A stretch of DNA of 64,000 nucleotides from Limnomonas spitsbergensis (lineage: Eukaryota > Chlorophyta > Chlorophyceae > Chlamydomonadales): positions 3,720,001-3,784,000 of the forward strand of contig JAYJMM010000037.1 of NCBI GenBank assembly GCA_037349105.1. The letters are read 5' to 3'. The notes beneath the pieces were generated by a model. It had not been told where the DNA came from. It did not search any database and saw only the letters and a program-made list of their open reading frames with translations. Below are positions 13,579-64,000 of this stretch, piece after piece. The stretch's first letter is position 1. Every line of letters starts with the position of its first letter. Both the position numbers and the translations under genes were made by a program.

Positions 13579-16500
13579 ATGGCCGAGGATGAGGTCCGCG
13601 TGCTGACGGAGGCGAAGTCTCTGCCCATGGTGGAGCGCGTGGCTCATTCAAATTGGAAAGCCCGCAATGCTGCTTACGAAGACATCAGAGTTGCTTGCCA
13701 ACGCGTGTACGAGGACTCAGACCCGTGCTTGGGTGAATACGGTAGGGGCAGAAACTCGCTGCTCCTCATGCCTCGGTGTCGCTGAAAATCTTGGAAGGAC
13801 CACCTGTCACGTCGACGTTGCAGGTGGCTTGTTCACGAAGGCCGTCGCAGACTCCAATGCTGCAGCGCAAGACAAAGCGTTGGAGAGTCTTGTCGTCTTC
13901 CTTAGCAAGGCCTCAGAGCAGCATGCAGCAAAGTGAGGAGCCCCTATTGGTGGACGCCATGCTGACATGCATGCTGACCACGCTGACGGAAATCCTTGCA
14001 TGCTTTCATTGGGCATGTGCTCACATGTCATGACCACACTTCAGGATGTCTGAAAGAACATGCTCAGCGATCGTGAACAAGGCACTCAATGGCAAGACCA
14101 GCGCCATTATCAAAGCCAATGATGCACTGTTGGGGTTCGTCGAGCTTGAGCAGGGGGATAAAGTCATGGTGAGAATAAACCAACCGCTTGGGTGTCCCAG
14201 AGTTTTTATTGCATGGCGATTGCTAGGCAATCCAATACAATCGCTGTCTGGGCTGCATTGGCCCAACCAGAAAACACAGCTGACCACACCGATGCACGTC
14301 TCGTGACCTGGCTGATATATTTTCAGATGCATGAAGTATGGGCAGCCCCTGCTGAGGAGGAGCTTGATTTCTTCCGTGCCTTTTATCTTAGGACGCCCTC
14401 CTCAGCTCGGGGCTCACGCACAAGGTGCCCAAGGTGGTCATCACAGTCCTGGAGGCGATGATCCAGGTCTTCAGGTGTGTGATTTTCCCCTGGGCAGGAG
14501 CAGGAGCGTGAAGGCTTGTGTTCACATCTTAAGGATTGTCAGTGTTTCATAGGCTGGATCACAGGGCCCATTGCGCTAAGCTGCTCTTTGGAGCTCGTAG
14601 TCTTGTACTCCTCTGGGTCCTTTGCCATTTGTGATGATCAATATGATACGGAGCCAGTAATGGACATCTTCCAGTAATTTCTACCGCACACGCCCATTTT
14701 AGCTTCCCCCCCCCTTATGCTCTAACATTCCAGTCGCCCTCTCAGCTCCTTTTTTTTCGCCACCCTGCACAGTCCACTCTCACCTCATCATTTTTCCGCG
14801 TCCACCCATGCAGCACATTTGGCACCAAGGTTGTGGCCCCGCAGCCGGTGTTCAAGGCCCTCCCGGCCCTCTTTGATTCAAAGGACGGGAAGGCGCGCGA
14901 GAAAGTCAAGGACCTGGTGGTAAGCAATGCCGGTGTCCGTCTCTTGCTGGCAAGCCTTTACTCTAGCTCATGGGCCCCTGTACCCAAGGCAGGCTGCGAC
15001 CCTACTAAAGGGCGCTGTATGTGGCCAGGAGTTCCTGCACCGGGATGAGCTGAGCTGAGCTGAGCTGAAGGATGAGCTGATGAGCTGGGGGATGTTTCAA
15101 GGGCTGGACGGGGGGCAGCATGTTGGGGGTGCTGCCCAGCTGACAATATGGGTTTGGGTAGAATACTGCAGGTTGTAGCAGGTCTTACGATGGATGGTGG
15201 GCGTTGTACGCTACGGGCACACCTCCGGACGTACAGCTTAGCTGGGCCTTGCCATGCATGTCAAGCACCATACCCGACTCTGAGCATGCTAACCTCAGAG
15301 TCTCATCTACGCAGCAGTGTCTTGTTTCGTTGGCACCAAACCACCTTGGGGGGTCTGCTGGCGGCCACCACTGAGCCGATCGGGACACAACTTTGAACAG
15401 TCTTTGGCAGCCGGCAACCCCAGCACTTAGGTTCGATTTACCAATTTGATGCGCCTGGATCTCTCGGGCGGCCGCAGGCCGTGACATCGCCGAAATCTCC
15501 CTGAAATGCAACTGAAGTGTGTGTGTGTTTTCGAATAATTAAAAAAACGCTGATGTTGCCCAGGTGGAGCTGTCGCGGTGGATTGGCGTCGAGGCGATAC
15601 GTGCCTCTCTTTTCCCCAAGGTGAGCGGCCTGTGGTATCAATTAGGGAAATGCACCTTGATGGGGATGCATGGCGAGAGAGGTCAGGCACTCACCCTGTC
15701 CTCAAAGGTGGACAAGCGAGCATACCTCCCAACCTGGCATGTATGATTGCATGATTTGATTTATGGACACCTAAACAGAATCAAATATAAAGAAACCGAT
15801 GCCAGTACAGAAATAATCACTATTTGATACAGTGATATGTTAGTATATATAAGCAGATGTAGGAGGGGAGGGGAGAAAACTCCTGGCCAACCTCAGAAAA
15901 ACACAAAGTGCCCAGCTCGTGGCATCGTGTCCCTGCTGTACTTGCATGGCTGTGCACGGCGTCATGCCACTGCTTTGCATGGTATGCATGGCGTCATGAC
16001 ACTATTTTGCATGGCTCTGCATGGCATCGTGCTACTGCTGTGCACAGCTGTGAATAGCAATGAACAGCTATCAAGCTATGCATGGCTTACATGGCATGGC
16101 TGTGCATGGTGTCATGCCACTGCTTTGCATGGCTGTGCATGGTGTCATGCCACTGCTTTGCATGGCTATGCATAGCGTCGTGCCACTGCTGTGCATAACT
16201 GCGAATGGCATCAAGCCACCTGTTTCTTTGGTTTTTGGGACCTCTCGTCTCAGCTTGTCACCTGAACAACTACTCATAGACAAGCATTAAATCCATGATA
16301 TCACATCAGCTACAGCACGATGACGAATTCCTTTCTGTGTAGTCTACCACGAAGCTCAGCAATACCGCATAAACATGATGATCCCACCGCCTTTTCCTTT
16401 CCCTGTACCCTAGATGCGTGACGCCATGAAGGAGGACATTGAGAAGGCCATCGCTGCCCTGGTGGAGCTCGGGATTCCCAAGCCCACGCCCGCACGCCTG

Positions 16501-19500
16501 ACTCGCAAGGAGCAGGCCAGGCAGGCTGCGCTCGCTGCTGTTGCTGCCTCGTCGTCTGCGCCCATGGATGTCGACGATGAGGGCGGCGCCGCGGGGAGTG
16601 CGGGAGGGGCTGCTGTGGAGGTCGCTGAGGAGGAAGAAACACAGGTTGGTGTGTGAAGAGGAGGAGGGTGCTGGGGTGTGGATGGGGTGGGTGGGCTGCT
16701 GCGGGTGTTGTGGGGAGGAGGTGACGCTCAGACACAGGTTGGTGTGTGAAGAGGAGGAGGGTGCTGGGATGTGGATGGGGTGGGTGGGCTGCTGCGGGTG
16801 TTGTGGGGAGGAGGTGACGCTCAGACACAGGTGTGTGGGGGGGGGGAGGAGAATGCTGAGGTGTGGATGGGGTGGATGGGCTGCTGCGGGTGCTGTGGGG
16901 AGGAGGTGACGCTCAGACACAGGTGTGTGTGTGGAGGAGGGGGGTGCTAAGTTGTGGATGGGGTGAGTGGTCTGCTGCGGGTGTTGTGGGGAGGAGGTGA
17001 CGCCGAGACACATGTGTGTGTGTGTGGAGGAGGAGGGTGCTGAGGTGTGGATGGGGTGGGTGGGCTGCTGCGGGTGTTGTGGGGAGGAGGTGACGCCGAG
17101 ACACAGGTGTGTGGGGGGGGAGGAGGGTGCTGAGGTGTGGATGGGGGGGGGGGGATTCCGGGTGCTGTGGGGAGGAGGTGATGCTCAGACACAGGTTTGT
17201 GTGTGAAGAGAAGGAGGGTGCTGAAGTGTGGATGGGGTGGGTGGGCTGCTGCGGGTGTTGTGGGGAGGAGGTGACACTCAGGCACATGTGTGTTTGTGTG
17301 GAGGATGAGGTTGCTGAGGTGTGGATGGGGTGGGTGGGCTGCTGCGGGTGTTGTGGGGAGGAGGTGACGCTCAGGCACAGGTTGGTGTGTGAAGAGAAGG
17401 AGGGTGCTGAAGTGTGGATGGGGTGGGTGGGCTGCTGCGGGTGTTGTGGGGAGGAGGTGACGCTCAGACACAGGTTGGTGTGTGAAGAGGAGGAGGGTGC
17501 TGGGATGTGGATGGGGTGGGTGGGCTGCTGCGGGTGTTGTGGGGAGGAGGTGACGCTCAGACACAGGTTGGTGTGTGAAGAGGAGGAGGGTGCTGATGTG
17601 TGGATGGGGTGGGTGGGCTGCTGCGGGTGTTGTGGGGAGGAGGTGACACTCAGGCACAGGTGTGTTTGTGTGGAGGATGAGGTTGCTGAGGTGTGGATGG
17701 GGTGGGTGGGCTGCTGCGGGTGTTGTGGGGAGGAGGTGACGCTCAGACACAGGTGTGTGTGTGTGGGGGGGGGGAGAATGCTGAGGTGTGGATGGGGGGG
17801 CAATGCGGGTGTTGTGGGGATGAGGTGACGCTCAGACACAGGTGTGTGGGGGGGGAGGAAGGTGCTGAGGTGTGGATGGGGGGGGGCAATGCGGGTGTTG
17901 TGGGGATGAGGTGACGCTCAGACACAGGTGTGTGGGGGGGGAGGAAGGTGCTGAGGTGTGGATGGGGGGGGGCAATGCGGGTGCTGTGGGGAGGAGGTGA
18001 CGCTCAGACACAGGTGTGTTTGTGAAGAGGAGGAGGGTTCTGGGGTGTGGATGGGGAGGGGCCCGCCGCACAGGTTTTGGGGACGAGGAGACAGAGGTGT
18101 GTGTGAGGGGGAGGAAGGCGCTGCGGCGTGGATAGGGACAAAGGCGAGGTGCTCAATTATTAAATTATAGCCTGAACCCTTCACCGTCACTGTCCAGATG
18201 GGTGCCAGGGACCTCAAACCGCTGCCCAATACTTAATTTCTAAACCTGAACCCTGAACTCTAAACCTAAGCGCTTCCTGGCCTGATGGACCCGTACAACA
18301 TGACAGATGCCAAGGACATTCTACCGCTGCTCAACATTTAATGTTCAACCTGAACCCCAAACCCTCACTATCCAGATGGACCCGTACGACATGACGGATG
18401 CAAAGGACATCATACCGCTGCTCAAGAAAGACTTCTGGGATGGCCTTGAATCCAAGAAGTGGAGCGACCGCAAGGGTCAGCTCACGATCCTCAAGGAGCT
18501 TGCTTCATACCCCCACCTTGCGTCGGGCAGGTGTGCAGGCACCGGTGTTCCATCCAGGACAAATTGAAACTTATACTCACTGCTGCACTGAGTATGTCAT
18601 TTTTTTGTCGCCTGTCAGACCTGACCCTCCTCAACCTATTTGTACCGATAGCCGTTCACGTACCTTGCACTCAAGCTTCAACCCGGCCTGCCCTTAGCTG
18701 GCCACCGGACGCTGCTTTAGCGCAGTTGTAACATACTCTGACCACACCCCTCCATTTCGTTCTGGCTGACGCCACGCCTCTCATTTATTTTCCTGCCGCA
18801 CTTACACGGCGCCCCCAAAACCTAAACACTGACACGGTGAAACCCTAGACCCTAAACCCTAAACCCCTGTTTGCTCCTCTTGGCTATCACGAACTCCATC
18901 AGGGACTGCGACTATGGCGACGTCAACCGCGAGTTGCGTAAGCTCATCACCAAGGATGCCAACATCCAGTGTGTGGCCGAGGGCATTGCATGCTGCGGCG
19001 TCATGGCCAAGAGCATACGTGCGGGCTACTCGAACACCGCCAAGGTAGGAGGGGGTCACGGCTTCACTCAAACAAAGCTACTCTCTTTCAGCTGCATTCT
19101 GCTTACGTTCAGAATGATAAAAAATGAAAACTACGCTCCCTTAGGGGCATGTGGGTTAAGGAACAGTGCAGCTCAGGGCCAAAGCCAAAGTTCAGTTGTG
19201 CCCCATCGTGTGGCCGAGTGGCCTGGAATTGCGCAAACCAAGAGTTCAAGGAATGCGGCCGCCTTGTGCAATAAGACAGCATCCAAAACAGCACACATGC
19301 TGCACGCAAGAATGCCTGTCAAGCTTTGATCCTGAACCGTTCAACCCGACCCCCCCCCCGCGGGCTTCCTGCGCAGGGCCTGGTGGAGGTGCTGTTTGAG
19401 AAATTCAAGGAGAAGAACGCGGCTGTGGGGCGGGCAGCTGCGGAGACACTTGCGGCCATGCACAAGTACTGCTGGACACTCATGGATGTTGCCGAGAGTT

Positions 19501-22500
19501 TAGCAGGTGGGCGCGTGAGAACGGCCCCAGAGTTGGGCCAGTGGCTGGCCTGGGGGTACGGTGGTGGTGGGGTGGTGGTGATTACTTCAATTTACTGCAT
19601 CACATCTCCTCTGTCCACGCACTCCCTCCTCCTCCAGTTGCGCTGGGTCACGCCAGCCCCAAGGTCAAGGAGGAGACACTGGCATGGCTACAGGCGGAGA
19701 TTGGCTCCGAAGCCAAGCCCGCGCTCTCCAAGCTGGCACCGCAGTTGCTGCCGCTGGCCGCCAAGTGCGCGGAGGAGGCAACGCCTTCACTGCGCGAGGC
19801 TGCAGTGGGCTTCCTGGTGGCCTTTGCTGTGAAGGTGGATAGTCTCTAAACCCTGCATTGCGCGGCTTGTGCTGTCTAGATGACTGAACCCTAAACCCTA
19901 GACCCTTTTTGGCCGCCTTTGTGTGGCACATTTTTCTGGTAAGGTGATTGAGCCCTGGACTGTACGTTGCCTTTGCCTAAATCTCCCGCGCTGTTATTGC
20001 TGAGTGCTTTATGCACGTAATGTACTTCTGCTGAAGCTACTGCTGCTCATGTATGAGGTATATTGTATACGAGGGTTCTTACTTCTATGTGTTATGTGGC
20101 AGTGGGCTGCATGGTGCCATGTTCTGTGGAGGTAATATGATTCTTGTGCTGTTTATTTGATGCCTATACGTTGCATGAACCGCCGCAAATGGGAATTGTA
20201 TCCTTTCCATCTAAGGTGCCAGCTGCCCAACTGCTCCTCCCTGCTGCCCTCCAGTTCGGGAACCCCGTGGTGCTGGACAAGTACACCTCCAAGCTCGACG
20301 ACGCCCGCAAGAAGGCGATAGAGAAAGGGCTCGCAGACGCCACCGGGGCGCCTGCAGAGGTAGCCGGGAGGCCCGGCGGCAGCGCCGCTGCCGCCGGCGC
20401 AAGTGCCGGCGGCGCGCCGGCCTCGTCCGCGCCTCCACCTGCGTCTGTGGTTCGCCTGTCAGCTTCCGCCCTCGTTGCCCAGGCCAAGTCTGCCAGGACG
20501 GGTGGCGCGTCCACCTCGGCGTTGCGGTCGTCGACGGCGGCAGTACCCAAGGGGACGAGCGGAGCTGCCAAGAAGCCGACCGCTTCGACCGGGGGCGCCA
20601 ATGCTGGTGGCAAGGTCATTGCAGGTGCGTGTTTTAATCTTTTTCAGGGTACTTTTGGAGTTCAGGTTCAAGGCATGTACGGTGTTGTGGGCCTGCTGCT
20701 GTAAGCCCTGCTGCTGCAAGCCCTGCAGCTACTGGCCACAGGCCTGCCAAAGTTTGGTCTCTGTCTTGGCCCAGTGGTGGCCGCCAAGGGGCCTCTGTCA
20801 AAGCTCCGCTTCAATCCGCGAAGCCGATTTGAAGTATGTAGCGCCTGCATGTTGTGGATACCGAACATGAAGGCACTGTTGCACTACCATGCTCACTCAC
20901 TGGTGGGAGAGCGGCACGTCGCCGGCACTGCAGCCCATCTCTTGCCCCCTCCCACCACGTATGGCTTAATTGAAAGCGGCTCTAGAGCTTTTTACCTTTC
21001 TGCCGGCTAAGATTCCGAAGATTTTGCAAGACTATCGATGCCTCAATGCTTAACTTCGGCTCCATAACTGATGGCCCCCCGCCCGCTCAACCTTTAGCAG
21101 CAACTATTAAAGCTCGGTCCGCCGCCCTGCTTTTGCGCTCTGCCCCTTTCCGATTTCCAGACCCTGAACCCTGGACCCTGACACCCTAAACGCTGCATTT
21201 CCTTCAGATGACGATGAGGCGTCTCTTTCTGCGGGCAGCCTGGCCAAGGACGTGCTGCTGGCTCGTCTCACGGAGCTGTTCGGGGAGGCAGAGGTCAAGG
21301 AGCTGGCAAGCGAGGACTGGAAGGTGTGTGCTTGTCGCCTGTCTAGGGCTCTTAAATAAGAAACTGAGATTCAAGGTGTGGTGTGTGTTTGCCGCTCGTA
21401 AACAAAAAACTGAGATCCCCATTGGGAGTCCCCCTGAGTTAAAAGGTGTGATGAGTGTTTGCCGCTTGTCTAGGGCTTTAAAAACAAGAAACTGAGATCC
21501 CCTTTGAAACCGTAGTGTCCGAGCCTCGTCTGTTGCTGTATCGATCCGTGCTTGAGGTATTGAAGATCTTTCAGGCCTCCTAGCCTTGAGGTATCGAAGA
21601 TCTTTCAGGCCTCCTAGCCTTGAGGTATCGAAGATCTTTCAGGCCTCCTAGCCTTGAGGTATTGAAGATCTTTCAGGCCTCCTAGCCTTGAGGTATCGAA
21701 GATCTTTCAGGCCTCCTAGCCTTGAGGTATTGAAGATCTTTCAGGCCTCCTAGCCTTGAGGTTTTGAATATCTTTCAGGCCTCCTAGCCTTGAGGTATTG
21801 AAGATCTTTCATGCCTCCTAGCCTTGAGGTATCGAAGATCTTTCAGGCCTCCTAGCCTTGAGGTATTGAAGATCTTTCAGGCCTCCTAGCCTTGAGGTAT
21901 TGAAGATCCGCAACAAGCCTCTTAGGTTTCAGGTTGTGCAGGCGTGCATCAGGCCTGTACCTGAGGCGTTTCTGGCTTAAGAAGGCTTCCTACACGCTTT
22001 AAGCCTCGGCCTAAAAAGCTGTCCAGCCACCGTTTGGCCATCCAAGCTGACCGTGCCGCTGCCCCGTCCCCTAAGTGCGGCTCGCTACCGTGGAGCGCAT
22101 CTCCACCTTCGCTCAGGACCCCTCAAACTGCCAGTTCCCCTGGTTCCCTAACCCAAAACCCTTAACCCTGATGGTGCCGCTGTCCCCGCCGTCCCCCAGG
22201 TGCGGCTCGCTGCCATGGAGCGCATCTCGACCTTCGCCCAGGACCCCTCAAACTCCCAGTCCCACTGCGCGACGCTCGCCCAGGGCATGGGGGCGACGCC
22301 CGGCTGGGGGGAGAAGAACTTCCAGGTGCGAGCAAGGAAGGAAGGGGGGGGGTCAATTTGATGGTAGGGAGGAGTGGAGGGACTGAGGCGCGGCACAGGA
22401 TGTTTGGGAGCTGGGGGCTGAGTCGTGAGGATGGCGTGGGGGACTTCGGCACGGGGGGACTGAGGCTTGTTGGTGGAGTGGACGGCTGAGGCGCAGGACA

Positions 22501-46385: not shown

Positions 46386-47452
46386 GGGAAGAAAGACACC
46401 TTCCTCCCAGATGTAGCGGGATCACACACTCAGCCCACTCATGTTATGCAAGCAACATGCTGACAGCTGCAATCTGAGTCTGGCTCGAAAAAAAATGCAG
46501 AACACGGCATGGAGAGCACCTAGGAAAGCTGTGTCATTGATTCGTTGCGATGCTGTGGAGGCGAATGTCAGCAAGCTCGGAAGCAGGGATAACAAGGCTA
46601 ATCAAGAGACAAGAGAATATGAGAATGATTAAGTGGCAGACAACCACACAGGCCACAGTCGTGAGGTGTTCAGTTGTAACGTCATTAACAGATCACATTC
46701 GAAACAACCATTGCACCGAGGGGAGGGTCAAGACGTGTCAGCTGTTGCAGCTACAGTATTCAAGATGATGAAGTGCTTCCACTTTTAACTGCATCCGGCG
46801 GCGGCACTGGTTCATGGTGGCATGAAGCGGCGCTGCTCTGCCAGAAATGCATGGCAAGAGGGAATCCAGCTTAACCTTGTTCGGCTTGCAGGCGGGTGGA
46901 TTGGGGAAAGGCTTATCCGGCTTATGATAATGAGGCCGCGCTCACATTTATGGCTGTGACTATTGGTGCAAAAAAAGGCAGCGACAATTGGTACTTATTC
47001 ACGGTACTTGAAATTACATGCATCTTTCACTCTTATTCATCCTCTCTCACACAAGATAATTTCACATCCAAGCTCCCTGTGTTTTTTCTCTCCTCCTGCA
47101 GGTTGGTTGCCGATTTTCCGTCTTGGGTGGAAACGTTCGCAGACGCACCAGCTGCTATGTGTCCATTTTGCTTCCTCGCTGGACTTCAAAAAGTATTCAC
47201 AAGCAAGTCATGCATCACGGCATGTGGCTGCAGCAATGCCAACCCATGCTTGATCCACCTTTCAAACACAGATCCCTGGTTTCAACGCAGCATGAGTGAT
47301 CGCAATCTACAAATAATGCCAAGACAGCAGAAGCATCCGGCAAATGGCGTCTCTGAAGAAATCCCCGCCTAGGTGCACCTGACAGGACACAAACCGGCCA
47401 TGGCCCTGTCCATGGCTTTGCCCTTGTGAAGCTACAAGATCAGGGGTTCGCC

Positions 47453-47505
47453 TCGGTGGTCAGGTTGAGCCCGTGCCACTCCTTCAGATCTAGAAGCAGA
47501 TCTGC
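47453..47505 (-). repeat. Partial copy of BOLA3 exon 3, downstream
   Basis: The reverse complement reads CTGAAGGAGTGGCACGGGCT then CAACCTGACCACCGAGGCG, giving LKEWHGLNLTTEANP and a TGA. It copies the last 13 codons of BOLA3 exon 3 (EMKEWHGLNLITKADS and stop) just downstream of the real stop. It is another exon-edge duplication, here at a gene end. Confidence 0.75.
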
Positions 47506-47531
47506 TGTCATGCAGATCTGGCCTTAGGGCT

Positions 47532-49105: not shown

Positions 49106-49472
49106 GTTAAATACCTCGCAGGTCAGATGTGATACTTTGAGTTCGATTTTCCCAGTGGCGACAAGCGGACAGAGGTCAGGGCAGGTGCCCTGTTCGTCCT
49201 ACCGTCCACCAGACTACCAGCTCCGAAACTTGGGAACCATGGGGCCATGGGTAACGGACCCATGCAGAAGCTCCCTTGTACTCCTGTCTTCGTCGTCTTT
49301 CTCGCTACCAATACAAACTGGGTTACTATTTTATATACAAATTTGCGGGAAATCACACAGCGGCTGAAACAGAAGCTAGACACGGGTCGATGAAATCCGA
49401 TTCGTACAAATTATAAAACCGAGACAGGCGGGTGCGCGACAGGGACCGTTTCGTTCTCCTCTTTCCGGCAAA
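49106..49472. promoter_or_regulatory. Divergent BOLA3/CDKC intergenic region
   Basis: The 367 bases between the two start codons must hold both promoters. A TATA-like TATTTTATATACA at 49327-49339 lies 133 bases before the CDKC ATG. No clear TATA box was seen for BOLA3. Shared regulation is possible but not shown. Confidence 0.55.
49327..49339 (+). promoter_or_regulatory. Candidate TATA box of CDKC
   Basis: TATTTTATATACA is the only TATA-like string in the short divergent region and is oriented toward the CDKC start codon. Confidence 0.4.
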
Positions 49473-52400: not shown

Positions 52401-55400
52401 CCGTGCATGGGGATGACACCCCTCCAGCTTATGTGCACCTGTCAGATGGCATGGCCTCCTCTGCTATGCCCGTGGCGCATGCATGCCCAAACCATGTCAC
52501 CTTGTCTCATCTGCTCCTCTCCCGCGCATGAGGATGCTCTCTCTGGCTGTTGGAGGAGGCCATGCCGTGGGAGACTCTCATGCTCCCATGGCATGGCCTC
52601 CTCTGATATGCCTGTGGTGCATGCATGCCCAAACCATGGCGCCTTGAATCATGTGCCCATGTCCCGTGTCTGTGGCGCAGGTGTTTGATTACTCCGAGTA
52701 TGATCTTACGGGCCTCATGGAGACCGTGAAGTACAAGTTCACGGAGGCTCAAGTGAGAAGGGGGATTACGCCAGGAGGTGGCAACGCACGACCCCCCCCC
52801 CCTTTACCCCTAACCCCTAAACCTCGAACCCACCACGTACGCTTTCGTTCTCCTATCACGCCTCCGTTGCTGACCCTTTTGCTCCTCCTGTTGCGTCTCC
52901 TGATTCCCTTTCCTTCCTCTCACTCTGCTATCCTTCCTGTCCCCCCATCTCTGCCGCCCCTTCATCCCTCCCCTGCTATGTCTTTCCTCCGTCTCCTTCC
53001 TTCATTTCACCCAGCCGTCCCTTTCCTTCCTATCCACCTTTCCTCCCGTCCCTCTCTCCTTCTCCTGCTTCACTTACCTCCAGCCCCTCCCCCTACTAAC
53101 TCCACCCACCCCTCCTGAAAGCTGTCCTCTCCCTCCCTCACCCCCCTGCGCCCCAACTCCAGCAGGCTGCCCCCCTCCCTCCCCTCCATCCCCCCTTCTC
53201 TTTATGGCTGCCCCCTCCCTTCCCCCCCTCCCTCCCCCCTCCTGTTGATGGCTGCCCCCTCCCTCCCTCACCTCCAGGTCAAGTGCATCATGAAGCAGCT
53301 CCTCAAGGGCCTGGCCTACGTGCACTCTAATGGAGTTCTGCACAGGTATATTTGGCAACATGTTCTGGGAGTGTGAACGTCCTGAACCCTACGTTCACCC
53401 TTTTGGAATCATGCACATGCATGTCAGGCAATGTGTCCTGGGAGTCTGTGCAGCGTCAACACTCCACCCTTAACCCTACGTGCACCCTTACGGAGTCCTG
53501 CAAATGTACAGTAAGACACTAGGCATGGACTGGGAGTGTGAACGTCCTATACCCTATGTTCACCCTAATGGAGTCCTGCACAAGTACACTAGGCATGGCC
53601 TGGGAGTGTGAACGCCCTTGACCCTGAATCCCAAACCCTACGTTCTTCCTAAAAACGTTATATTCGGGTTAACTGGGCAACGTGTCCCAAATGTGATTTC
53701 TTAAACCCTGAACCCTGATGGTAACGGCGAGAATGTGGTTAGTCCCCAAGCTGCGTTGTTTCCCTGACCTCCACGCCCTTGTAGGGCGTAGCTTCCTTTC
53801 TTTCTTTGAGCCCTGAACCCTACATGCACTCAAACAGAGCTCTGCGCGGATGTGCGGGTGCAGGGACTAGATTTGGGGTGAATGGTCCCAGGGATTCCAC
53901 CCTAGCATCGAGGCAATATTTGTCTAGCTCTGGTCGCCGTGAAGGACCCCAGCCAGGCTGATATGCTTGGCTGCCGATCAGCGACCGGGACCTTCCTGCA
54001 CTGGCACAAAGGCCGGACTTTCGTTAGGTCCCAGGATTTTGTCCTCTAGCTCGACAAGCGTGATTTTACTGGCACTGCTTGCCTTGAAGGAACCCCAGCC
54101 AGGCTGCTACGCTCGGCTGCCAATCGGTGACCGGGACCTTCCTACACTGGCACAGAGACCGGAGTCCCAGGATTATTAGGTCCCAAGATTTTGTACTCTA
54201 GCTCGCCAGGCGAGGTTTTACTGGCAATCGTTGCTTTTAAGCAGCCACGGCCAGGCAGCCACGCTCGGCTGCCGACTGGCAACTTGGATCCTTCTGCACT
54301 AGACGCAGCGTCCTGGGATCAGGACCATGCGCTCATGTTTTGCATGTGTCTGTGTGGGGCATTGGCCCTCCTGATGTATCGGCTGTCTTTCACTTTTCCT
54401 TTTGTCCCTCTTAGGCATCAACCAGCCTGGAGCATTAGCCTTCCTCATGCGTAAGCCGCCCTCTGTTGATCCGCCCTGTGCTCCAAGGGACCTTGCAGCC
54501 TATGGTTAAGCCTGCAACCCAAACCCCTAACTCTGCTGATCCACCCTGTGCCCCAAGGGACCTCAAAGCCTCCAATATACTCATTGATCGGAACGGCATC
54601 GTGAAGCTAGCAGGTGCGGCACTAAGTTCATCGAAACCCTGTCGTAACCGTCCTCGAAATTGTTCTTCATGTGTTGCATACGCCTGTTGAAAGAGGTACC
54701 CCCCCCACCCTCTACGTGTGCTACCATTGTTGAAAGAGGTACCCCCCCCACCCTCTACGTGTGCTACCATTGTTGGTTACCTTTTGGGTGGTTTCCATGT
54801 GGATTGGATTTCTTTTGTGCATCGGTGTTCCATGCAAGATGTTTTGCCATGTGGAGGACCTCAACTTTTTTGCCCCAGTGTTCCATGCAAGATGTGAAGC
54901 CACCGGTGTTCCATGCAAGATGTTGTCATGCAAGATGTTACCATTTTAGATGTTGCCATGCAAGACGTTGCCATGCAAGATGTTGCTATGCAGACCTGGG
55001 AGATACCGCCCACGTCCTCCTTGTTGACTTAACAAATATCTTTTCTCCTTGCAACAGACTTTGGTTTGGCACGAACGTACCAGAACAAGCAAGACGGGCG
55101 TTTGACGAACCGAGTGATCACACTTTGGTACAGGTGTGAATGGGTTGATCACTCTTTGCCTTCATTGGCATATGTGTGGATGTGCTTGTGGCCATGGGGC
55201 CTGTCGTCCTGCAAGTCTTACTGTTGAATCTCATGGATTTCTTCTGCTTTTATTGTGTGAGGCACAGGCCGTGAGGCAGATGTGTTTTTAGTTTTGAATT
55301 TAAATACCCCCCCTTCTTGCGTGGGCTACAGCTGGGATTTGAATCTAAAGAATGTTGCGTTGCCCTGTAGACCCCTGAACCGCTGCTTGTATCCAAATAA

Positions 55401-58400
55401 AACTATATTAAATGCCCCCCCCTCCCCCCCCAACCTCTGTATTCCCCTGAGCCTCTGCTGAGATCTGACTTCCTTTCCTCCCATATTCCACCTGTGCTGC
55501 TGCGGGGATCTGATTTCAAATTCAAATATATTATCTTCATACCGCTGCCCCCCTGAGCTGCTTCTGATACCTGATCATACGTCAAATTTTTCCACCTTCT
55601 CCCATGTTTCTCCTGAGTCTCTGCTGGGATCCGATTTCATATTTAAAAAAACCCGTCCATCCCGAACACCCCTGCTATCTTCTTCTGGGATCTGTGTACA
55701 AATTTAAATACACCCTCCTCATCACGTAGCCTCCCTGAGCTGCTGCTGGGATCTTGATTCAAATCCAAACATACCCCTCTCATCCTGTAGACGCCCTGAG
55801 CTGCTGCTGGGATCTTGATTAAAATTCAAATATACCCCTCTCATCCCGTAGCCTCCCTGAGCTGCTGCTGGTATCTTCATTAAAATTCAAATATACCCCC
55901 TCATCCCGTAGCCTCCCTGAGCTGCTGCTGGTATCTTCATTAAAATTTAAATATACCCCTCTCATCCCGTAGACACCCTGAGCTGCTGCTGGGATCTTGA
56001 TTCAAATTCAAATATACCCCCCTCATCCCGTAGACGCCCTGAGCTGCTGCTGGGATCTTGATTCAAATCCAAACATACCCCTCTCATCCCGTAGACGCCC
56101 TGAGCTGCTGCTGGGATCTTGATTCAAATTCAAACATACCCCTCTCATCCCGTAGACGCCCTGAGCTGCTGCTGGGATCTTGATTCAAATTCAAACATAC
56201 CCCTCTCATCCCGTAGACGCCCTGAGCTGCAGCTGGTATCTTCATTAAAATTCAAATATACCCCCTCATCCCGTAGCCTCCCTGAGCTGCTGCTGGTATC
56301 TTCATTAAAATTCAAATATACCCCCTCATCCCGTAGCCTCCCTGAGCTGCTGCTGGTATCTTCATTAAAATTTAAATATACCCCTCTCATCCCGTAGACA
56401 CCCTGAGCTGCTGCTGGGATCTTGATTCAAATTCAAATATACCCCCCTCATCCCGTAGCCTCCCTGAGCTGCAGCTGGGATCTTGATTCAAATTCAAATA
56501 TACCCCTCTCATCCCGTAGACCCCCTGAGCTGCTGCTGGGATCTGATTTCAAATTCAAATGCCCCCCCTCATCCTGTAGACCCCCTGAGCTTCTGCTGGG
56601 ATCTGAGCGGTACGGACCGGAGATCGACATGTGGAGTGTGGGATGCATTCTCGCCGAGCTGCTTGTTGGCAAGCCCATCTTTCCCGGTGAGCAGTGTTGA
56701 TGGCATTTGTGTGAATCAAGAAGAAATGACAGGTCCTTGCTGGCAGGCCCCACCTTCCCTGGAAATAAGCATTATTGACTCAATGTTGGTGAATCAATGT
56801 AAAATCAAGGGGAGGAAGCCAATCGTCCCCCGTGTTCAGCATTTTTACTAAATGTTGGTGAATCAATGTAAAATTAAGCAACTGCTCATTGGCAGGCCAA
56901 TGGTCCCCCGTGTTCAGTGTTGTAAATTTCACTATTGAGGAATTAGTCAAGGAACTAATCAAGGAACCACCCTAATTTGAATCATTGCTGGAGCCGAGTT
57001 ACAGTTGGGGGGTGCGGTACGCATCCTGGCTGAGCTGCTAGTGGAGAGACCTATACTCCCGGAATAGACACCAGCAGGGCTTGTCGAACCTGTACATGTT
57101 CACTGAATTCACACCGTAACAGTAGACTTAGTATAAACCCGGGAGAGGGTTAAGGCACCATTCTAAGCCAAACAGCATCAGGCACCTCCGCACCTGGCAC
57201 CTGGCATCAAGCACCTGCCACCCAGCATCAGACAGGCAGGCATCACGCAGGCAGGCATCAGGCAGGCAGGCATCAGGCAGGCAGGCATCAGGCAGGCAGG
57301 CATCAGGCAGGCAGGCATCAGGCAGGCAGGCATCAGGCAGGCAGGCATCAGGCAGGCATCAGGCAGGCAGGCATCAGGCAGGCAGGCATCAGGCAGGCAG
57401 GCATCAGGCAGGCAGGCATCAGGCAGGCAGGCATCAGGCAGGCAGGCATCAGGCAGGCATCAGGCAGGCAGGCATCAGGCAGGCAGGCATCAGGCAGGCA
57501 GGCATCAGGCAGGCAGGCATCAGGCAGGCAGGCATCAGGCAGGCAGGCATTAGGCAGGCAGGCATCAGGCAGGCAGGCATCGGGCAGGCAGGCATCAGGC
57601 AGGCAGGCATCAGGCAGGCAGGCATCAGGCAGGCATCAGGCAGGCAGGCATCGGGCAGGCAGGCATCAGGCAGGCAGGCATCAGGCAGGCAGGCAAGCAG
57701 GCATCAGGCAGGCAGGCATCAGGCAGGCAGGCATCAGGCAGGCAGGCATCGGGCAGGCAGGCATCAGGCAGGCAGGCATCAGGCAGGCAGGCATCAGGCA
57801 GGCAGGCATCAGGTAGGCAGGCATCAGGCAGGCAGGCATCAGGCAGGCAGGCATCAGGCAGGCAGGCATCAGGCAGGCAGGCATCAGGCAGGCAGGCATC
57901 AGGCAGGCAAGCATCAGGCAGGCAGGCATCAGGCAGGCAGGCATCAGGTAGGCAGGCATCAGGCAGGCAGGCATCAGGCAGGCAGGCATCAGGCAGGCAG
58001 GCATCAGGCAGGCAGGCATCAGGCAGGCAGGCATCAGGCAGGCAAGCATCAGGCAGGCAGGCAGGCATCAGGCAGGCAGGCATCAGGCAGGCAGGCATCG
58101 GGCAGGCAGGCATCAGGCAGGCAGGCATCAGGCAGGCAGGCATCAGGCAGGCAGGCATCAGGCAGGCAGGCATCAGGCAGGCAGGCATCAGGCAGGCAGG
58201 CATCAGGCAGGCAGGCATCAGGCAGGCATCAGGCAGGCAGGCATCAGGCAGGCAGGCATCAGGCAGGCAGGCATCAGGCAGGCAGGCATCAGGCAGGCAG
58301 GCATCAGGCAGGTAGGCATCAGGCAGGCAGGCATCAGGCAGGCAGGCATCAGGCAGGCAGGCATCAGGCAGGCAGGCATCAGGCAGGCAGGCATCAGGCA

Positions 58401-61400
58401 GGCAGGCATCAGGCAGGCAGGCATCAGGCAGGCAGGCAGGCATCAGGCAGGCAGGCATCAGGCAGGCAGGCATCAGGCAGGCATCAGGCAGGCAGGCATC
58501 AGGCAGGCAGGCATCAGGCAGGCGGGCATCAGGCAGGCAGGCATCAGGCAGGCAGGCATCAGGCAGGCAGGAATCAGGCAGGCAGGCATCAGGCAGGCAG
58601 GCATCAGGCAGGCAGGCAGGCATCGGGCAGGCAGGCATCAGGCAGGCAGGCATTGGGCAGGTAGGCATCAGGCAGGCAGGCATCAGGCAGGCGGGCATCA
58701 GGCAGGCAGGCATTGGGCAGGTAGGCATCAGGCAGGCAGGCATCAGGCAGGCAGGCATCAGGCAGGCAGGCATCAGGCAGGCAGGCATCAGGCAGGCAGG
58801 CATCAGGCAGGCAGGCATCAGACAGGCAGGCATCAGGCAGGCAGGCATCAGGCAGGCAGGCATCAGGCAGGCAGGCAGGCATCAGGCAGGCAGGCATCAG
58901 GCAGGCAGGCATCAGGCAGGCATCAGGCAGGCAGGCATCAGGCAGGCAGGCATCAGGCAGGCAGGCATCAGGCAGGCAGGCATCAGGCAGGCAGGCATCA
59001 GGCAGGCAGGCATCAGGCAGGCAGGCATCAGGCAGGCAGGCATCGGGCAGGCAGGCATCAGGCAGGCAGGCATCAGGCAGGCAGGCATCAGGCAGGCATC
59101 AGGCAGGCAGGCATCAGGCAGGCAGGCATCAGGCAGGCAGGCATCAGGCAGGCAGGCATCAGGCAGGCAGGCATCAGGCAGGCAGGCATCAGGCAGGCAG
59201 GCATCAGGCAGGCAGGCATCGGGCAGGCAGGCATCAGGCAGGCAGGCATCAGGCAGGCAGGCATCAGGCAGGCAGGCATCAGGTAGGCAGGCATCAGGCA
59301 GGCAGGCATCAGGCAGGCAGGCATCAGGCAGGCAGGCATCAGGCAGGCAGGCATCAGGCAGGCAGGCATCAGGCAGGCAGGCATCAGGCAGGCAGGCATC
59401 AGGCAGGCAGGCATCAGGCAGGCAGGCATCAGGCAGGCAGGCATCAGGCAGGCAGGCAAGCAGGCATCAGGCAGGCAGGCATCAGGCAGGCAGGCATCAG
59501 GCAGGCAGGCATCAGGCAGGCAGGCATCAGGCAGGCAGGCATCAGGCAGGCAGGCATCGGGCAGGCAGGCATCAGGCAGGCAGGCATCAGGCACGCAGGC
59601 ATCAGGCAGGCAGGCAGGCATCGGGCAGGCAGGCATCAGGCAGGCAGGCATCAGGCAGGCAGGCATCGGGCAGGCAGGCATCAGGCAGGCAGGCATCAGG
59701 CAGGCAGGCATCAGGCAGGCATCAGGCAGGCAGGCATCAGGCAGGCAGGCATCAGGCAGGCAGGCATCAGGCAGGCAGGCATCAGGCAGGCAGGCATCAG
59801 GCAGACAGGCATCAGGCAGGCAGGCATCAGGCAGGCAGGCATCAGGCAGGCAGGCATCAGGCAGGCAGGCATCAGGCAGGCAGGCATCAGGCAGGCGGGC
59901 ATCAGGCAGGCAGGCATCAGGCAGGCAGGCATCAGGCAGGCAGGCATCAGGCAGGCGGGCATCAGGCAGGCAGGCATCAGGCAGGCAGGCATCAGGCAGG
60001 CAGGAATCAGGCAGGCAGGCATCAGGCAGGCAGGCATCAGGCAGGCAGGCAGGCATCGGGCAGGCAGGCATCAGGCAGGCAGGCATTGGGCAGGTAGGCA
60101 TCAGGCAGGCAGGCATCAGGCAGGCGGGCATCAGGCAGGCAGGCATTGGGCAGGTAGGCATCAGGCAGGCAGGCATCAGGCAGGCGGGCATCAGGCAGGC
60201 AGGCATCAGGCAGGCAGGCATCAGGCAGGCAGGCATCAGGCAGGCAGGCATCAGACAGGCAGGCATCAGGCAGGCAGGCATCAGGCAGGCAGGCATCAGG
60301 CAGGCAGGCAGGCATCAGGCAGGCAGGCATCAGGCAGGCAGGCATCAGGCAGGCATCAGGCAGGCAGGCATCAGGCAGGCAGGCATCAGGCAGGCAGGCA
60401 TCAGGCAGGCAGGCATCAGGCAGGCAGGCATCAGGCAGGCAGGCATCAGGCAGGCAGGCATCAGGCAGGCAGGCATCGGGCAGGCAGGCATCAGGCAGGC
60501 AGGCATCAGGCAGGCAGGCATCAGGCAGGCATCAGGCAGGCAGGCATCAGGCAGGCAGGCATCAGGCAGGCAGGCATCAGGCAGGCAGGCATCAGGCAGG
60601 CAGGCATCAGGCAGGCAGGCATCAGGCAGGCAGGCATCAGGCAGGCAGGCATCGGGCAGGCAGGCATCAGGCAGGCAGGCATCAGGCAGGCAGGCATCAG
60701 GCAGGCAGGCATCAGGTAGGCAGGCATCAGGCAGGCAGGCATCAGGCAGGCAGGCATCAGGCAGGCAGGCATCAGGCAGGCAGGCATCAGGCAGGCAGGC
60801 ATCAGGCAGGCAGGCATCAGGCAGGCAGGCATCAGGCAGGCAGGCATCAGGCAGGCAGGCATCAGGCAGGCAGGCATCAGGCAGGCAGGCAAGCAGGCAT
60901 CAGGCAGGCAGGCATCAGGCAGGCAGGCATCAGGCAGGCAGGCATCAGGCAGGCAGGCATCAGGCAGGCAGGCATCAGGCAGGCAGGCATCGGGCAGGCA
61001 GGCATCAGGCAGGCAGGCATCAGGCACGCAGGCATCAGGCAGGCAGGCAGGCATCGGGCAGGCAGGCATCAGGCAGGCAGGCATCAGGCAGGCAGGCATC
61101 GGGCAGGCAGGCATCAGGCAGGCAGGCATCAGGCAGGCAGGCATCAGGCAGGCATCAGGCAGGCAGGCATCAGGCAGGCAGGCATCAGGCAGGCAGGCAT
61201 CAGGCAGGCAGGCATCAGGCAGACAGGCATCAGGCAGGCAGGCATCAGGCAGGCAGGCATCAGGCAGGCAGGCATCAGGCAGGCAGGCATCAGGCAGGCA
61301 GGCATCAGGCAGGCGGGCATCAGGCAGGCAGGCATCAGGCAGGCAGGCATCAGGCAGGCAGGCATCAGGCTGGCAGGCATCAGGCAGGCAGGCATCAGGC

Positions 61401-64000
61401 AGGCAGGCATCAGGCAGGCAGGCATCAGGCAGGCAGGCATCAGGCAGGCAGGTAGGCATCAGGCAGGCAGGCATCAGGCAGGCGGGCATCAGGCAGGCAG
61501 GAATCAGGCAGGCAGGCATCAGGCAGGCGGGCATCAGGCAGGCAGGCATCAGGCAGGCAGGCATCAGGCAGGCAGGCATCAGGCAGGCAGGCATCAGGCA
61601 GGCATCAGGCAGGCAGGCAGGTAGGCATCAGGCAGGCAGGCATCAGGCAGGCAGGCATCAGGCAGGCAGGCATCAGGCAGGCAGGCATCAGGCAGGCATC
61701 AGGCAGGCAGGCATCAGGCAGGCATCAGGCAGGCAGGCATCAGGCAGGCAGGCATCAGGCAGGCAGGCATCAGGCAGGCAGGCATCAGGCAGGCAGGCAT
61801 CAGGCAGGCAGGCATCAGGCAGGCAGGCATCAGGCAGGCAGGCATCAGGCAGGCAGGCATCAGGCAGGCAGGCATCAGGCTCCTTATCACCTCCGGCCAT
61901 TGTGGTACCCCCTGTTTCTCCTTACCTTCTTGATGGTCAACTCCTTTGACAGGTACTGATGAAATGGACCAGCTTGACAGGATCTTCCGTACCATGGGCT
62001 CCCCGACAGACCAGAACTGGCCAGGTTGCACCAAGCTGCCTTTGTAAGCTGCCCTTGTAAGCTGCCCTTGTAAGCTGCCTTGGAAGCTGCCTTGAAAGCT
62101 GCCTTGAAAGCTGCCTTGAAAGCTGCCTTGAAAGCTGCCTTGGAAGCTGCCTTGAAAGCTGCCTTGGAAGCTGCCTTGAAAGCTGTCTTGAAAGCTGACT
62201 TGGAAGCTGCCTATTTTCCCTTGCACTCGCAAGGCATGGCATGACGTGTGCGTGCATACACTCTGACACTCCCCATCTGATCAGACCTGACCAGGCCACA
62301 CCATGATGCTTTTGTAAGCTGCTCTTGTGTGCGCATGCATTGGCATCATATGTGCATGCATGGCACGTCATGTGTATGCGCGTGCATGGCACGACATGTC
62401 ACCTGTGCACGCGCTTGCATGGCATGACATGTGTGTGCGCATGCATGATGTGGCATGTGCAGGAGCCATGGTGTCTGCACCATGGGCTCCACGACCAATC
62501 ATACCCGGCCAGTCTACCCCAATCTGCCCGTGTAAGGAGAAATGTGCATGGTGCATGCATGGGCGCATGGGCGCATGGTGCATGCATGGGCGCATGGCAC
62601 GCATGGTGTTATAGATGTGGTTTCCCGTTAGCCCCAGTCATTGTGTCAGAGAGTGAGGCTCGTACATTGCCTCTCCTTGCTTGATACCTGGTTTTAAGCT
62701 GCTGCGCAAAACTTTACAAAATACGTTTTTACTTTGCCGGGCAGGTCCAAAATGTATGTGTGCTCCAGATTTTGAACGCCGTTTACCTGCAATATCTACC
62801 GGTATCTACCTCTTGCCTTTGATGAGGTCCTTTTGCTCAAATAGAAGGGCAGCCAGCTCAAGAACTGGCTGCCGGCTCCCCCCACACACACCCGCTATTT
62901 GCTATGCAACATCTGCCCCTGTTTGCTCGAGCTTTAACAAGGTTCTCCAGGCCTAGGTTTTGCCCAGCTTAAGGGCTGCCACTTGAATAAATGGCTGCGG
63001 GACATGGGGGATAGGCCAAATCCGATGCTTCATGTAGTTGTGTTTTCGAACTTGCACGCCCACCCCCTCCGTTGCCTCTTCGCTCCAGCTTGACAAGGTC
63101 CCTCCTGTTGTTGGGCAACTTAACAAAGAAGTGGCTGTGTGCCCCCCTCATTTGCTCTATCTGAATGTGTAGCGTCTGTAACAGCTGGATCACCTGCAAC
63201 ATCTGTTTCGTGTGCAACACCTTCCTTTCTTTGCTTCAGCTTTGACAAGGTCCCTCCGAACAAGTACAAAGGCAACCACCTGAAGAAATGGCTGCGGGAC
63301 ATGGCCAGCAGGGCCAACCTTCTGCTCAACGTGAAGGATGATGCGGTGGCGCTGCTCGAGAAGATGTTGTCCCTGGACCCGACTCGCAGGATCTCGGCGC
63401 TGGAGGCCATCAAGGCAAGGGGGTGCAGATGTTGCATATGTTGCATTTCTGGGGGAGGCAGGGGGGGCCAGCGCGGCGCATTATCCCGGGAAGTTCCATT
63501 TGTAACATTAGCCCAAGTTTCAGCTCATTGCAGGTGACCAAGTCCTCCGCTCGCGATGGTCGTGAGCATTGGAATCGATCATCTTGCAGCTTGTGTTTGC
63601 CGTGTGCTGTCATGCTACGCCTCCTCTACACTTGCAACGCCACACTCCCGCACATGACCCTTCTGGTTTTGAGGTGACCGTATAGCCCTAAACCCTAAAC
63701 CTTGAAATTCCGCACAGGACCCCTGGTTCTGGCAGGACCCCATGCCTTGCTCTCCCAAAGACCTGCCCTGCCACGGCTCCCAACACGAGTTCACAATGAA
63801 GCGTCGCCGCAACGATGAGAAAGAGCAGCTGCTTATGCCTCTGCAGCTGCCGCAACAACAGCAACAACAACAACAGCTGGAATACGAGGACCGGAGCCGG
63901 CAGGGCGGGCTGGCAGGCTCGGTGGGAGGAGGCAGGATGCCGGCGCTCATGCAGCAACAGCAGCAGCAACAGCAGTTTCGCCAGCAGGTTGGCGCAGCAC
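49473..64000 (+). CDS. CDKC: CDKC-type cyclin-dependent kinase (CDK9/CDK12 class), 3' end outside window
   Basis: Serine/threonine kinase that pairs with cyclin T/K-type partners and phosphorylates the RNA polymerase II C-terminal domain. Exons: 49473-49559, 49733-49843, 50922-51060, 51808-51845, 52681-52752, 53278-53345, 54558-54613, 55058-55133, 56580-56686, 61953-62043, 63240-63414, 63718-64000+ (434 residues seen). Landmarks: glycine loop IGEGTYGQV (48-56), VALKK lysine K72, C-helix PITAIRE (the CDKC form), HRDLKASN (171-178), DFG (191-193), T-loop [36 protein letters not shown], then [13 protein letters not shown] and [17 protein letters not shown]. After the kinase domain comes [10 protein letters not shown] and Gln runs. 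ATG 49473 has context CAAAATGG. Exon 11 uses a GC donor (AAG|GCAAGG, 63415) because no GT choice keeps the frame into DPWFW. Exon 7's acceptor is CCCAAG. Introns are large and repeat-filled. Confidence 0.94.
49860..50440 (+). repeat. ~58-bp minisatellite, about 10 copies (CDKC intron 2)
   Basis: Units of CATGGTCGCATGGGAGGAGG then GAGGCCCATAATATGTCCCACC differ by substitutions and lengths of 55-61 bp. The array begins about 20 bases after the exon 2 donor; no clear copy of exon sequence is visible in the unit. Confidence 0.8.
51061..51400 (+). repeat. Copies of exon 3 end with telomere-like spacers (CDKC intron 3)
   Basis: AATGTGGTCAACCTGCAGGA then GATCGTTCGCTCGGAGAGTG at about 51149 copies exon 3's last ~13 codons with the donor GAGA|GTGAGA. 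Weaker copies follow at about 51283 and 51356. They alternate with ACCCTGAACCCTAAACCCTG runs. Confidence 0.8.
51530..51720 (+). repeat. Tandem copies of a CTCTGGTTTTC...GGTGTC unit (CDKC intron 3)
   Basis: Three partial units with CCTCTGGTTTTC(T)CCCC, then TTTCAATA(C/T)CACCA, then ATGGTGTC and GTTGGTGTGCCAC occur at about 51530, 51610 and 51665. Confidence 0.65.
51975..52205 (+). repeat. CCCTAAA telomere-like repeats in four blocks (CDKC intron 4)
   Basis: Four blocks, each starting CCCCCAGGTCTCTGTCCT or a close variant and followed by three to six AACCCTAAACCC-type heptads and ACCGTTACAA, make a ~60-bp higher-order unit. The heptad is the plant/green-algal telomere repeat (TTTAGGG), here on the sense strand as CCCTAAA. 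Interstitial, not a chromosome end. Confidence 0.8.
52440..52680 (+). repeat. Duplicated acceptor-proximal block (CDKC intron 4)
   Basis: GGCATGGCCTCCTCTGxTATG, then CCxGTGGxGCATGCATGCCC, then AAACCATGxCxCCTTG occurs at 52449-52505 and again at 52589-52645, next to the exon 5 acceptor at 52680. Confidence 0.7.
53380..53620 (+). repeat. Copies of exon 6 end (CDKC intron 6)
   Basis: Variants of CACCCTAATGGAGTCCTGCA then CAxGTxxAxTAGGCA with GGGAGTGTGAACGTCCT follow exon 6 at about 53395, 53483 and 53560. They reproduce exon 6's CACTCTAATGGAGTTCTGCA then CAG end plus the first intron bases. Confidence 0.8.
53719..53808 (-). repeat. Dispersed repeat family A (CDKC intron 6)
   Basis: Reverse complement: CAAAGAAAGAAAGGAAGCTA, then CGCCCTACAAGGGCGTGGAG, then GTCAGGGAAACAACGCAGC, then CTCGCCGTTACCATC. 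Same order and hairpin as 36845-36945. Confidence 0.65.
53930..54310 (+). repeat. ~125-bp tandem repeat, 3 copies (CDKC intron 6)
   Basis: Units share CCCAGCCAGGCTGCTACGCT, then CGGCTGCCAATCGGTGACCG, then GGACCTTCCTACACTGGCAC, then GTCCCAGGATTTTGTCCTCTA, then GCTCGACAAGCG. Three diverged copies start near 53945, 54085 and 54245. Confidence 0.75.
54466..54560 (+). repeat. Copy of exon 7 acceptor region (CDKC intron 6)
   Basis: GATCCGCCCTGTGCTCCAAG then GGACCTTGCAGCCT (54466-54500) copies GATCCACCCTGTGCCCCAAG|GGACCTCAAAGCCT at 54538-54571. It includes the unusual AAG acceptor and first codons. Confidence 0.8.
54690..55000 (+). repeat. Short tandem repeats (CDKC intron 7)
   Basis: A 42-bp unit AAAGAGGTACCCCCCCCACC then CTCTACGTGTGCTACC then ATTGTT occurs twice (54690-54773). 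Then GTTCCATGCAAGATGT/GTTGCCATGCAAGA units follow at 54828-55000. Confidence 0.75.
55430..56579 (+). repeat. 61-bp minisatellite built from the exon 9 acceptor and first codons (CDKC intron 8)
   Basis: The unit is CTCATCCCGTAGACGCCCTG, then AGCTGCTGCTGGGATCTTGA, then TTCAAATTCAAATATACCCC, spaced 61 bp in the best-conserved part (about 55720-56579). The first two blocks are the exon 9 acceptor and its start: CATCCTGTAG|ACCCCCTGAG then CTTCTGCTGGGATCTGAG (codons [10 protein letters not shown]). Some 14 regular units plus decayed ones back to 55430 precede the true exon, which continues GCGGTACGG. Each unit offers an acceptor-like (C)GTAG and a few in-frame kinase codons before diverging into AT-rich sequence. 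Confidence 0.9.
57005..57066 (+). repeat. Copy of exon 9 end (CDKC intron 9)
   Basis: CGCATCCTGGCTGAGCTGCT then AGTGGAGAGACCTATACTCC then CGG copies exon 9's last ~14 codons (CATTCTCGCCGAGCTGCTTG then TTGGCAAGCCCATCTTTCCC then G). Confidence 0.75.
57170..61880 (+). repeat. 4.7-kb array of a 15-bp unit with 1433-bp higher-order repeats (CDKC intron 9)
   Basis: The unit CATCAGGCAGGCAGG (15 bp) fills most of intron 9, with interspersed 11-bp (CATCAGGCAGG) and 19-bp variants and point changes. Rare variants recur with a fixed offset: GAATC at 58571 and 60004, AAGCAGG at 59458 and 60891, and the double CATTGGGCAGGTAGG block near 58650 and 60083. All are 1433 bp apart, showing a duplication of a long block; one 15-bp unit was later gained or lost. 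A more diverged block lies to the left. The frames of 350-410 codons (Met-Pro-Ala-Cys-Leu repeats) exist because 15 is divisible by three and are not proteins. The array ends about 72 bp before exon 10. Confidence 0.95.
62044..62215 (+). repeat. 12-13-bp array grown on the exon 10 donor (CDKC intron 10)
   Basis: Exon 10 ends AAGCTGCCTTT|GTAAGCTGCC. The intron continues with CTTGTAAGCTGCC units (13 bp), then CTTGGAAGCTGC/CTTGAAAGCTGC units (12 bp), about 14 in all. The first two or three keep a GTAAGC donor-like string; later ones have G-to-A/T changes that destroy it. Confidence 0.88.
62270..62545 (+). repeat. Two decayed copies of exon 10 end with donor (CDKC intron 10)
   Basis: About 62283-62330 (GACCTGACCAGGCCACACCA then TGATGCTTTTGTAAGCTG) and about 62470-62540 (CACCATGGGCTCCACGACCA, then CCGGCCAGTCTACCCC, then AATCTGCCCGTGTAAGG) follow exon 10's ACCATGGGCTCCCCGACAGA ... 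CTGCCTTTGTAAGC. Confidence 0.8.
62815..63145 (+). repeat. Three copies of exon 11 start (CDKC intron 10)
   Basis: Near-copies of TTTGACAAGGTCCCTCCGAA, then CAAGTACAAAGGCAACCACC, then TGAAGAAATGGCTGCGGGAC occur at about 62818-62880, 62930-63010 and 63087-63143. The middle one still has AATAAATGGCTGCGGGACAT. The real exon 11 is the last at 63240. Each copy carries stops or indels. Confidence 0.85.
63686..63705 (+). repeat. CCCTAAA run before exon 12 (CDKC intron 11)
   Basis: GCCCTAAACCCTAAACCTTG lies 12-30 bases upstream of the exon 12 acceptor. Confidence 0.6.

Follow-up and report, generated by a model that had tools for sequence, protein, structure and literature searches.

In the snow alga Limnomonas spitsbergensis, a member of the Chlamydomonadales, pieces of exon-intron junctions seem to recur in the adjoining introns of two large genes, and the question raised by this locus is whether duplication is aimed at splice sites or whether junctions are copied in the course of a more general process. 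According to the available part of the genome report, 33.16% of this genome is repetitive, largely unclassified, the introns of the merged annotation have a mean length of 788 bp, and IsoSeq data have been published (PMC11228838). The original prediction, made by inspection of the letters, named 26 splice junctions as copied, together with one site past a stop codon, and ascribed them to local tandem duplication centred on splice sites. As a whole, this interpretation is partly supported by the analysis reported here.

Materials and Methods

The window, that is, the whole stretch of 64,000 nucleotides under analysis, corresponds to G000:C37:3720001-3784000, and the assembly searched comprises 260,226,709 bases in 124 contigs. 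A spliced protein-to-DNA aligner written for this analysis provided the MOR1, CDKC and dynein models. The MOR1/XMAP215-like gene (13579..45036, plus strand, the 3' end past 45036 being provisional) was modelled with 43 exons by spliced alignment to P0001 of Chlamydomonas eustigma, the closest homologue found (65% identity); a 6-base exon and an empty exon were removed and exon 12 was lengthened to 20216. The CDKC-like kinase gene (49466..63921, plus strand) has 12 modelled exons in the window and extends beyond it; its model is based on spliced alignment to P0060/P0062 and shows a Pkinase Pfam match. The exon numbering of both genes appears to match that of the original prediction. As a sample from elsewhere in the genome, we used the AAA1 region of eight dynein heavy-chain genes, drawn from 16 AAA1 gene regions that were grouped by eye, after removal of exons shorter than 20 bases and of the spurious-looking tail exons of loci L033 and L035.

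These models gave 105 introns (42 from MOR1, 11 from CDKC and 52 from dynein genes). The anatomy, coverage, decay, splice-score and simulation statistics refer to 91 introns (39 MOR1 and 52 dynein) with 182 junctions, in which the splice consensus is ordinary (GT donors in 90/91, GC in 1/91). A third sample consisted of 43 exons that were predicted ab initio and scored at least 18 for coding, in 264 kb outside the MOR1-CDKC part. Since the ab initio model was trained on MOR1, its recovery of 40 of the 43 MOR1 exons is no independent check; two ab initio runs fused genes and were set aside as gene models. In the main test, the 40 terminal exon bases were compared with their own adjoining intron, and a Smith-Waterman score of at least 28 was counted as a copy.

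Junctions are copied into their own introns

In the protein-supported models, the adjoining intron held a copy for 25 of the 105 donors and 30 of the 105 acceptors, against 1/3150 donors and 1/3150 acceptors when the exon ends were paired with introns of unrelated genes, as expected if the copies come from the adjoining junction. The proportions were 11/53 donors and 11/53 acceptors for MOR1 and CDKC together, and 14/52 donors and 19/52 acceptors for the dynein genes. The ab initio sample behaved in the same way, with copies at 9/41 donors and 13/40 acceptors, wrong pairings at 1/402 and 1/393, and exon middles matching in 0/41 and 2/40 cases. It is thus confirmed that junction copies are real and recurrent, in eight dynein loci and at further exons of the same contig, and roughly one in four of the exon-intron boundaries sampled is accompanied by a decaying copy within the adjoining intron.

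Exon interiors, with which the original prediction had wished the junctions to be compared, are copied far less often: their middles matched in 0/39 MOR1 and 2/52 dynein cases (threshold 30). At the same threshold, the distal ends of the exons on either side, compared with the introns, gave 0/91 and 0/91 matches. Exon interiors are probably protected by selection, so that noncoding DNA is a better control than they are.

Anatomy of the copies

A copy detectable by BLAST was present at 51 of the 182 junctions (23 donors and 28 acceptors). The best copy per junction spans 12-97 exon bases, almost always together with intron bases, and exceeds 70 exon bases in 2/51 cases; the lags lie between 66 and 354 bases, plus a single value of 1452, and their medians are 109-125. 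In all 28 best acceptor copies, at least 33 bases separate the end of the copy from the real junction, a spacing that may reflect a need to keep the branch point and the pyrimidine tract. Sharp lag peaks near 92, 105 and 123 in MOR1 were not upheld in the dynein loci. Lags below 60 are absent from the BLAST self-comparison histogram, yet TRF finds many shorter periods, and this gap is therefore probably an artefact.

Of the 26 junctions named beforehand, 23 were recovered, including all ten MOR1 donors, eight of them by the Smith-Waterman test and donors 7 and 38 by arrays (all coordinates are those of the window, plus strand unless stated). The array at donor 7 (16639..18060) has a 93-bp unit in 15.6 copies, starts within the final 6 bases of exon 7 (ACACAG, followed by GTTGGTGTG) and gives a unit-to-junction alignment score of 65, while that at donor 38 (39832..40275) has a 65-bp unit and likewise starts within the final 6 bases of exon 38. 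Donor 16 has four copies between 23795 and 24366 (23795-23875, 24055-24107, 24142-24181 and 24284-24366), donor 25 has two (29752-29811 and 29883-29950, within 29752..29950) and donor 31 has three (34336..34625). Single copies follow donor 27 (31320..31474, 36 exon bases), donor 28 (32181..32252, 62 exon bases, match 89% identical, with a donor score of 11.8 against 11.4 for the original), donor 30 (33620..33696, in which the donor GT has become AT) and donor 36 (38759..38861, 63 exon bases). At donor 29, a 32-bp array of about 11 copies starts in exon 29 (32571..32928); a search of the genome with the region of this array gave one other match, at L010 (G000:C116:2101950-2102279, 66% identical), possibly a related gene or array.

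Eight of the nine MOR1 acceptors also held: acceptor 8 (18203..18334, 50 exon bases), acceptor 14 (22047..22142, 68 exon bases), acceptor 17 (24462..24530, 32 exon bases), acceptor 18 (24915..25006, 22 exon bases), acceptor 21 (27300..27357, 44 exon bases, match 93% identical), acceptor 28 (31821..31892, 60 exon bases, match 93% identical), acceptor 34 (copies within 36243..36495) and acceptor 35 (37016..37152, 70 exon bases). The exception is acceptor 32, where the repeat includes 3 exon bases only. Three further MOR1 junctions, absent from the original list, have copies, namely acceptor 27 (30984..31050, 43 exon bases), acceptor 37 (39260..39305, 18 exon bases) and, weakly, donor 11. In CDKC, five of the seven named junctions were supported: donor 3 (51148..51192, coordinates taken by eye, score 56), donor 6, acceptor 11, acceptor 9, with a 61-bp array of about 16 copies that enters exon 9 (55612..56604), and donor 10, by a 12-bp array of about 15 copies that starts in exon 10 and crosses the donor (62033..62212). 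Donor 9 and acceptor 7 fell below the threshold and were not supported. The predicted copy past the stop codon of BOLA3 is also present (47450..47486, minus strand, original at 47542-47578); this second version of the C-terminal coding end is identical to the first at 34 of 37 bases, and the site is no splice junction. The two joined BOLA3 pieces match the BolA Pfam family with 21.2 bits, below the cut-off of 25.7 bits.

Larger arrays were observed in the same genes. In MOR1, the intron that precedes exon 42 contains a 42-bp unit repeated 57 times with 98% matching (window 41864-44266), and each unit bears CTCCTTGCAG followed by GCCC, 14 bases identical to the exon 42 acceptor; judged from this identity, the array may be an amplified acceptor junction offering about 57 decoy acceptors. 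CDKC intron 9 contains about 313 copies of the 15-bp unit GCATCAGGCAGGCAG over 4.7 kb (window 57225-61880), and telomere-like CCCTAAA/CCCTGAA runs lie in other parts of the CDKC introns (window 51083-51148, 51217-51266 and 51979-52190), with similar units in introns of L034, L038 and L039. Kilobase arrays with 48-bp and 384-bp units (L035:1532-4142 and L036 reverse complement 3706-5104) end in dynein exons, with the acceptor junction included. Elsewhere in the window, a 99-bp/297-bp tandem repeat lies within a 441-codon open frame (8840-10037), perhaps a repetitive protein-coding array, and an open frame on the minus strand (2934-3335) shows a putative resemblance to the C-terminal portion of a hAT-type transposase.

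Placement of the duplications

Targeting of duplication to splice junctions, caused for example by co-transcriptional R-loops, by stalls or by breakage at splice-site tracts, would lengthen introns from their edges. However, coverage by local direct matches has no peak at the junction: 50 of 182 junction points (27%) are covered, compared with 22-35% at intron depths of 20-300 bases and 43% of the intron positions that lie over 60 bases away from any junction (16% without the matches that touch junction copies). Inside the exon, coverage is 20, 11, 4 and 6% at 20, 40, 60 and 80 bases, and over MOR1 it amounts to 14.7% of exon and 34.9% of intron. In a simulation with even tandem placement, neutral decay in introns, protected exons, a minimum of intron for splicing and matched intron coverage, run with five parameter sets whose settings (unit length, substitution, indel and filter values) were our own choices, the ratio of junction to intron coverage was 0.42-0.63. 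The observed ratio is 0.63 (bootstrap 0.48-0.88), so that even placement fits it within error and targeting is not required to explain how often junctions are copied. The ratio is 0.81 when the four introns (of 91) longer than about 1.6 kb are left out, and exon parts of more than 70 bases are rarer among the observed best copies (2/51) than in the simulation (20-32%).

The tandem arrays found by TRF speak more in favour of targeting. Exons are overlapped by 20 of 76 arrays, where 11.1 (sd 2.9) are expected naively; this excess of 1.80-fold compares with 0.65- to 1.25-fold for simulated even placement and thus exceeds it 1.4- to 2.8-fold. It persists for arrays of ordinary composition (18/58 against 8.9 expected, sd 2.6), and comes mainly from the dynein genes (14/47 against 7.1), being slight in the genes of the window (6/29 against 4.1). 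Arrays clear of exons also lie within 50 bases of a junction more often than expected (19/56 against 11.3, P 0.007); nevertheless, those with ordinary units do not do so significantly (11/40 against 8.5, P 0.21), and the arrays near acceptors with a pyrimidine or purine skew (8/16 against 2.9) are in excess as pyrimidine tracts would produce. Grouped into families, the matches gave 53 junctions with a family and 21 intron-only families, and the closer matches lean to the junction at an identity of at least 90% (14 junction against 5 intron-only) and of at least 85% (18 against 12). The family counts alone pointed to strong targeting and the base-level coverage to none, and the simulation was needed for this reason.

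The claim that duplication is centred on splice sites is weakly supported: on one side, arrays enter exons more often than under simulated even placement; on the other stand the coverage without a junction peak, duplication of the same type across introns and the remainder of the 264 kb, and the BOLA3 site, where a stop codon has been copied as well. A residual junction excess of 1.4- to 2.8-fold is possible in this small sample. For R-loops or replication stalls over splice sites, suggested at the outset as causes, this analysis gave no positive evidence, and we regard targeting as a rather unlikely source of the copies.

Fate of the copies

The copies decay roughly neutrally. Comparison of exon and copy gave a dN/dS of 0.42 for MOR1 and 0.35 for the dynein genes, with 6 in-frame stops, where we reckon that a copy drifting neutrally away from a fully conserved exon would show about 0.5. 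The totals still include four array cases for which global alignments are meaningless (L035 acceptor 3, L036 acceptor 5, L036 donor 5 and L038 donor 5), and for this reason we relied on the MOR1 value. Splice signals, predicted to survive in some copies, are retained in many: the splice cores are kept in 32/39 donor and 31/39 acceptor copies, and 20/39 and 29/39, respectively, score in the range of real sites.

Such retention could suggest that the copies serve as alternative exons or as splice decoys maintained by selection, and in some of them (acceptors 21 and 28, and acceptor 6 of L038) the exon part seems better conserved than the intron part. However, the cores are retained about as well as neighbouring positions, and among the 39 donor and 39 acceptor copies there was no sign of preferential destruction of the splice dinucleotides. 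In the MOR1 matches, gaps number 0.58 per 100 bases in the exon part and 8.54 in the intron part. This contrast probably arises because matches stop where gaps occur and because intron sequence is repetitive; the intron parts, being rich in repeats and prone to indels, may for that reason have been lost faster. The near-neutral dN/dS and the in-frame stops speak against the idea, also considered, that the exon part of the copies is constrained. A function under selection is therefore very unlikely.

Orientation and arrangement

In 264 kb, 785 direct local matches stand against 15 inverted ones and 14 in a shuffled control, and direct local duplications cover 31% of the sequence, compared with 0.7% for inverted ones and 1.3% for an order-2 shuffle. 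Together with the rarity of matches in wrong pairings, these values uphold the view that the process is local, direct and mostly tandem, with no transposition. Insertion of templated sequence during end joining, or transposition that disperses exon edges, would account for several two-copy cases in which the lag exceeds the length of the detectable match; this shortfall may reflect decay or a non-tandem origin. Nevertheless, inverted local copies occur at chance level, wrong pairings match in 1/3150 cases, and 22 of 75 TRF arrays (76 entered the exon-overlap test) consist of head-to-tail units bearing the junction, by a strict test in which two arrays of MOR1, that at donor 7 and that of 57 copies preceding exon 42, were scored as intron-only. 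An origin of this kind is highly improbable.

Least probable of all is that the repeats are birth marks of introns recently gained by tandem genomic duplication, a model that has direct repeats at splice sites as its hallmark, since the tail of the upstream exon was found at the intron 3' end in 1/102 cases and the head of the downstream exon at the 5' end in 0/102 (0 and 1 of 2040 in wrong pairs), and several intron positions are shared by paralogous dynein genes, so that those introns are old.

Discussion

Taken together, our findings suggest that the junction copies are probably a by-product of very frequent short local duplication in the genome, with at most a mild concentration at exon-intron boundaries. 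In this alga, very frequent direct local duplication, mostly tandem, would affect introns and other sequence, with units of about ten to a few hundred bases. When such a unit straddles a splice junction, the exon-proximal junction would stay in use and the other copy would be left within the intron, where it would decay roughly neutrally. Duplications within exons would be purged by selection, and those at junctions would persist only where enough intron had been duplicated to provide working splice signals. Chance straddling combined with this filter would make exon edges recur in introns without any dedicated mechanism; the duplication at the BOLA3 stop codon counts for such a general process. 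We infer both the selective filter and a general mutational origin, by replication slippage or repair.

A bolder reading, which is possible but doubtful, would make splice junctions mild hotspots of tandem duplication (about 1.4 to 2.8 times even placement), with introns growing partly by edge copying and with decoy sites, often of comparable strength, at about a quarter of the junctions for the spliceosome to ignore. Even as a by-product of general duplication, the copies provide a natural experiment on how splice sites are chosen: in many introns a close duplicate of the donor or acceptor, exon context included, lies within some 25-200 bases of the correct junction, which is presumably still used despite it. 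Gene finders and spliced aligners may also stumble on introns with junction copies.

Within the titles and abstract beginnings of the open literature searched, there was no recognised account of such junction copies in an alga. Within that literature, it therefore seems to be new to recognise that such repeats often reproduce the junction next to them, and that about a quarter of the sampled junctions are concerned.

Chlamydomonas reinhardtii and Volvox carteri belong to the same order of algae as this species. In these two algae, according to the available part of the report, the density of tandem repeats is highest in introns and rises toward the intron ends (PMC3887541), a likeness to the repeats described here that also speaks for some targeting to junctions. 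Unlike the copies in L. spitsbergensis, the intron motifs of that report, so far as its available part goes, are short (GT/AC) and are not identified as copies of exon edges with their splice signal (PMC3887541). In human genes lying in segmental duplications, internal tandem repeats at exon-intron boundaries have likewise been described, in connection with alternative splicing and novel introns; the available part of that account concerns 27 intron modifications in recently duplicated genes, whereas about a quarter of the sampled junctions are affected in the alga, mostly with decayed copies (PMC2812944). With intron gain by tandem genomic duplication, finally, the present system shares local tandem duplication that includes splice signals, but the arrangement of the copies is the opposite (1/102 and 0/102 for the arrangement of that model), and exon-edge repeats are not to be taken as intron gain.
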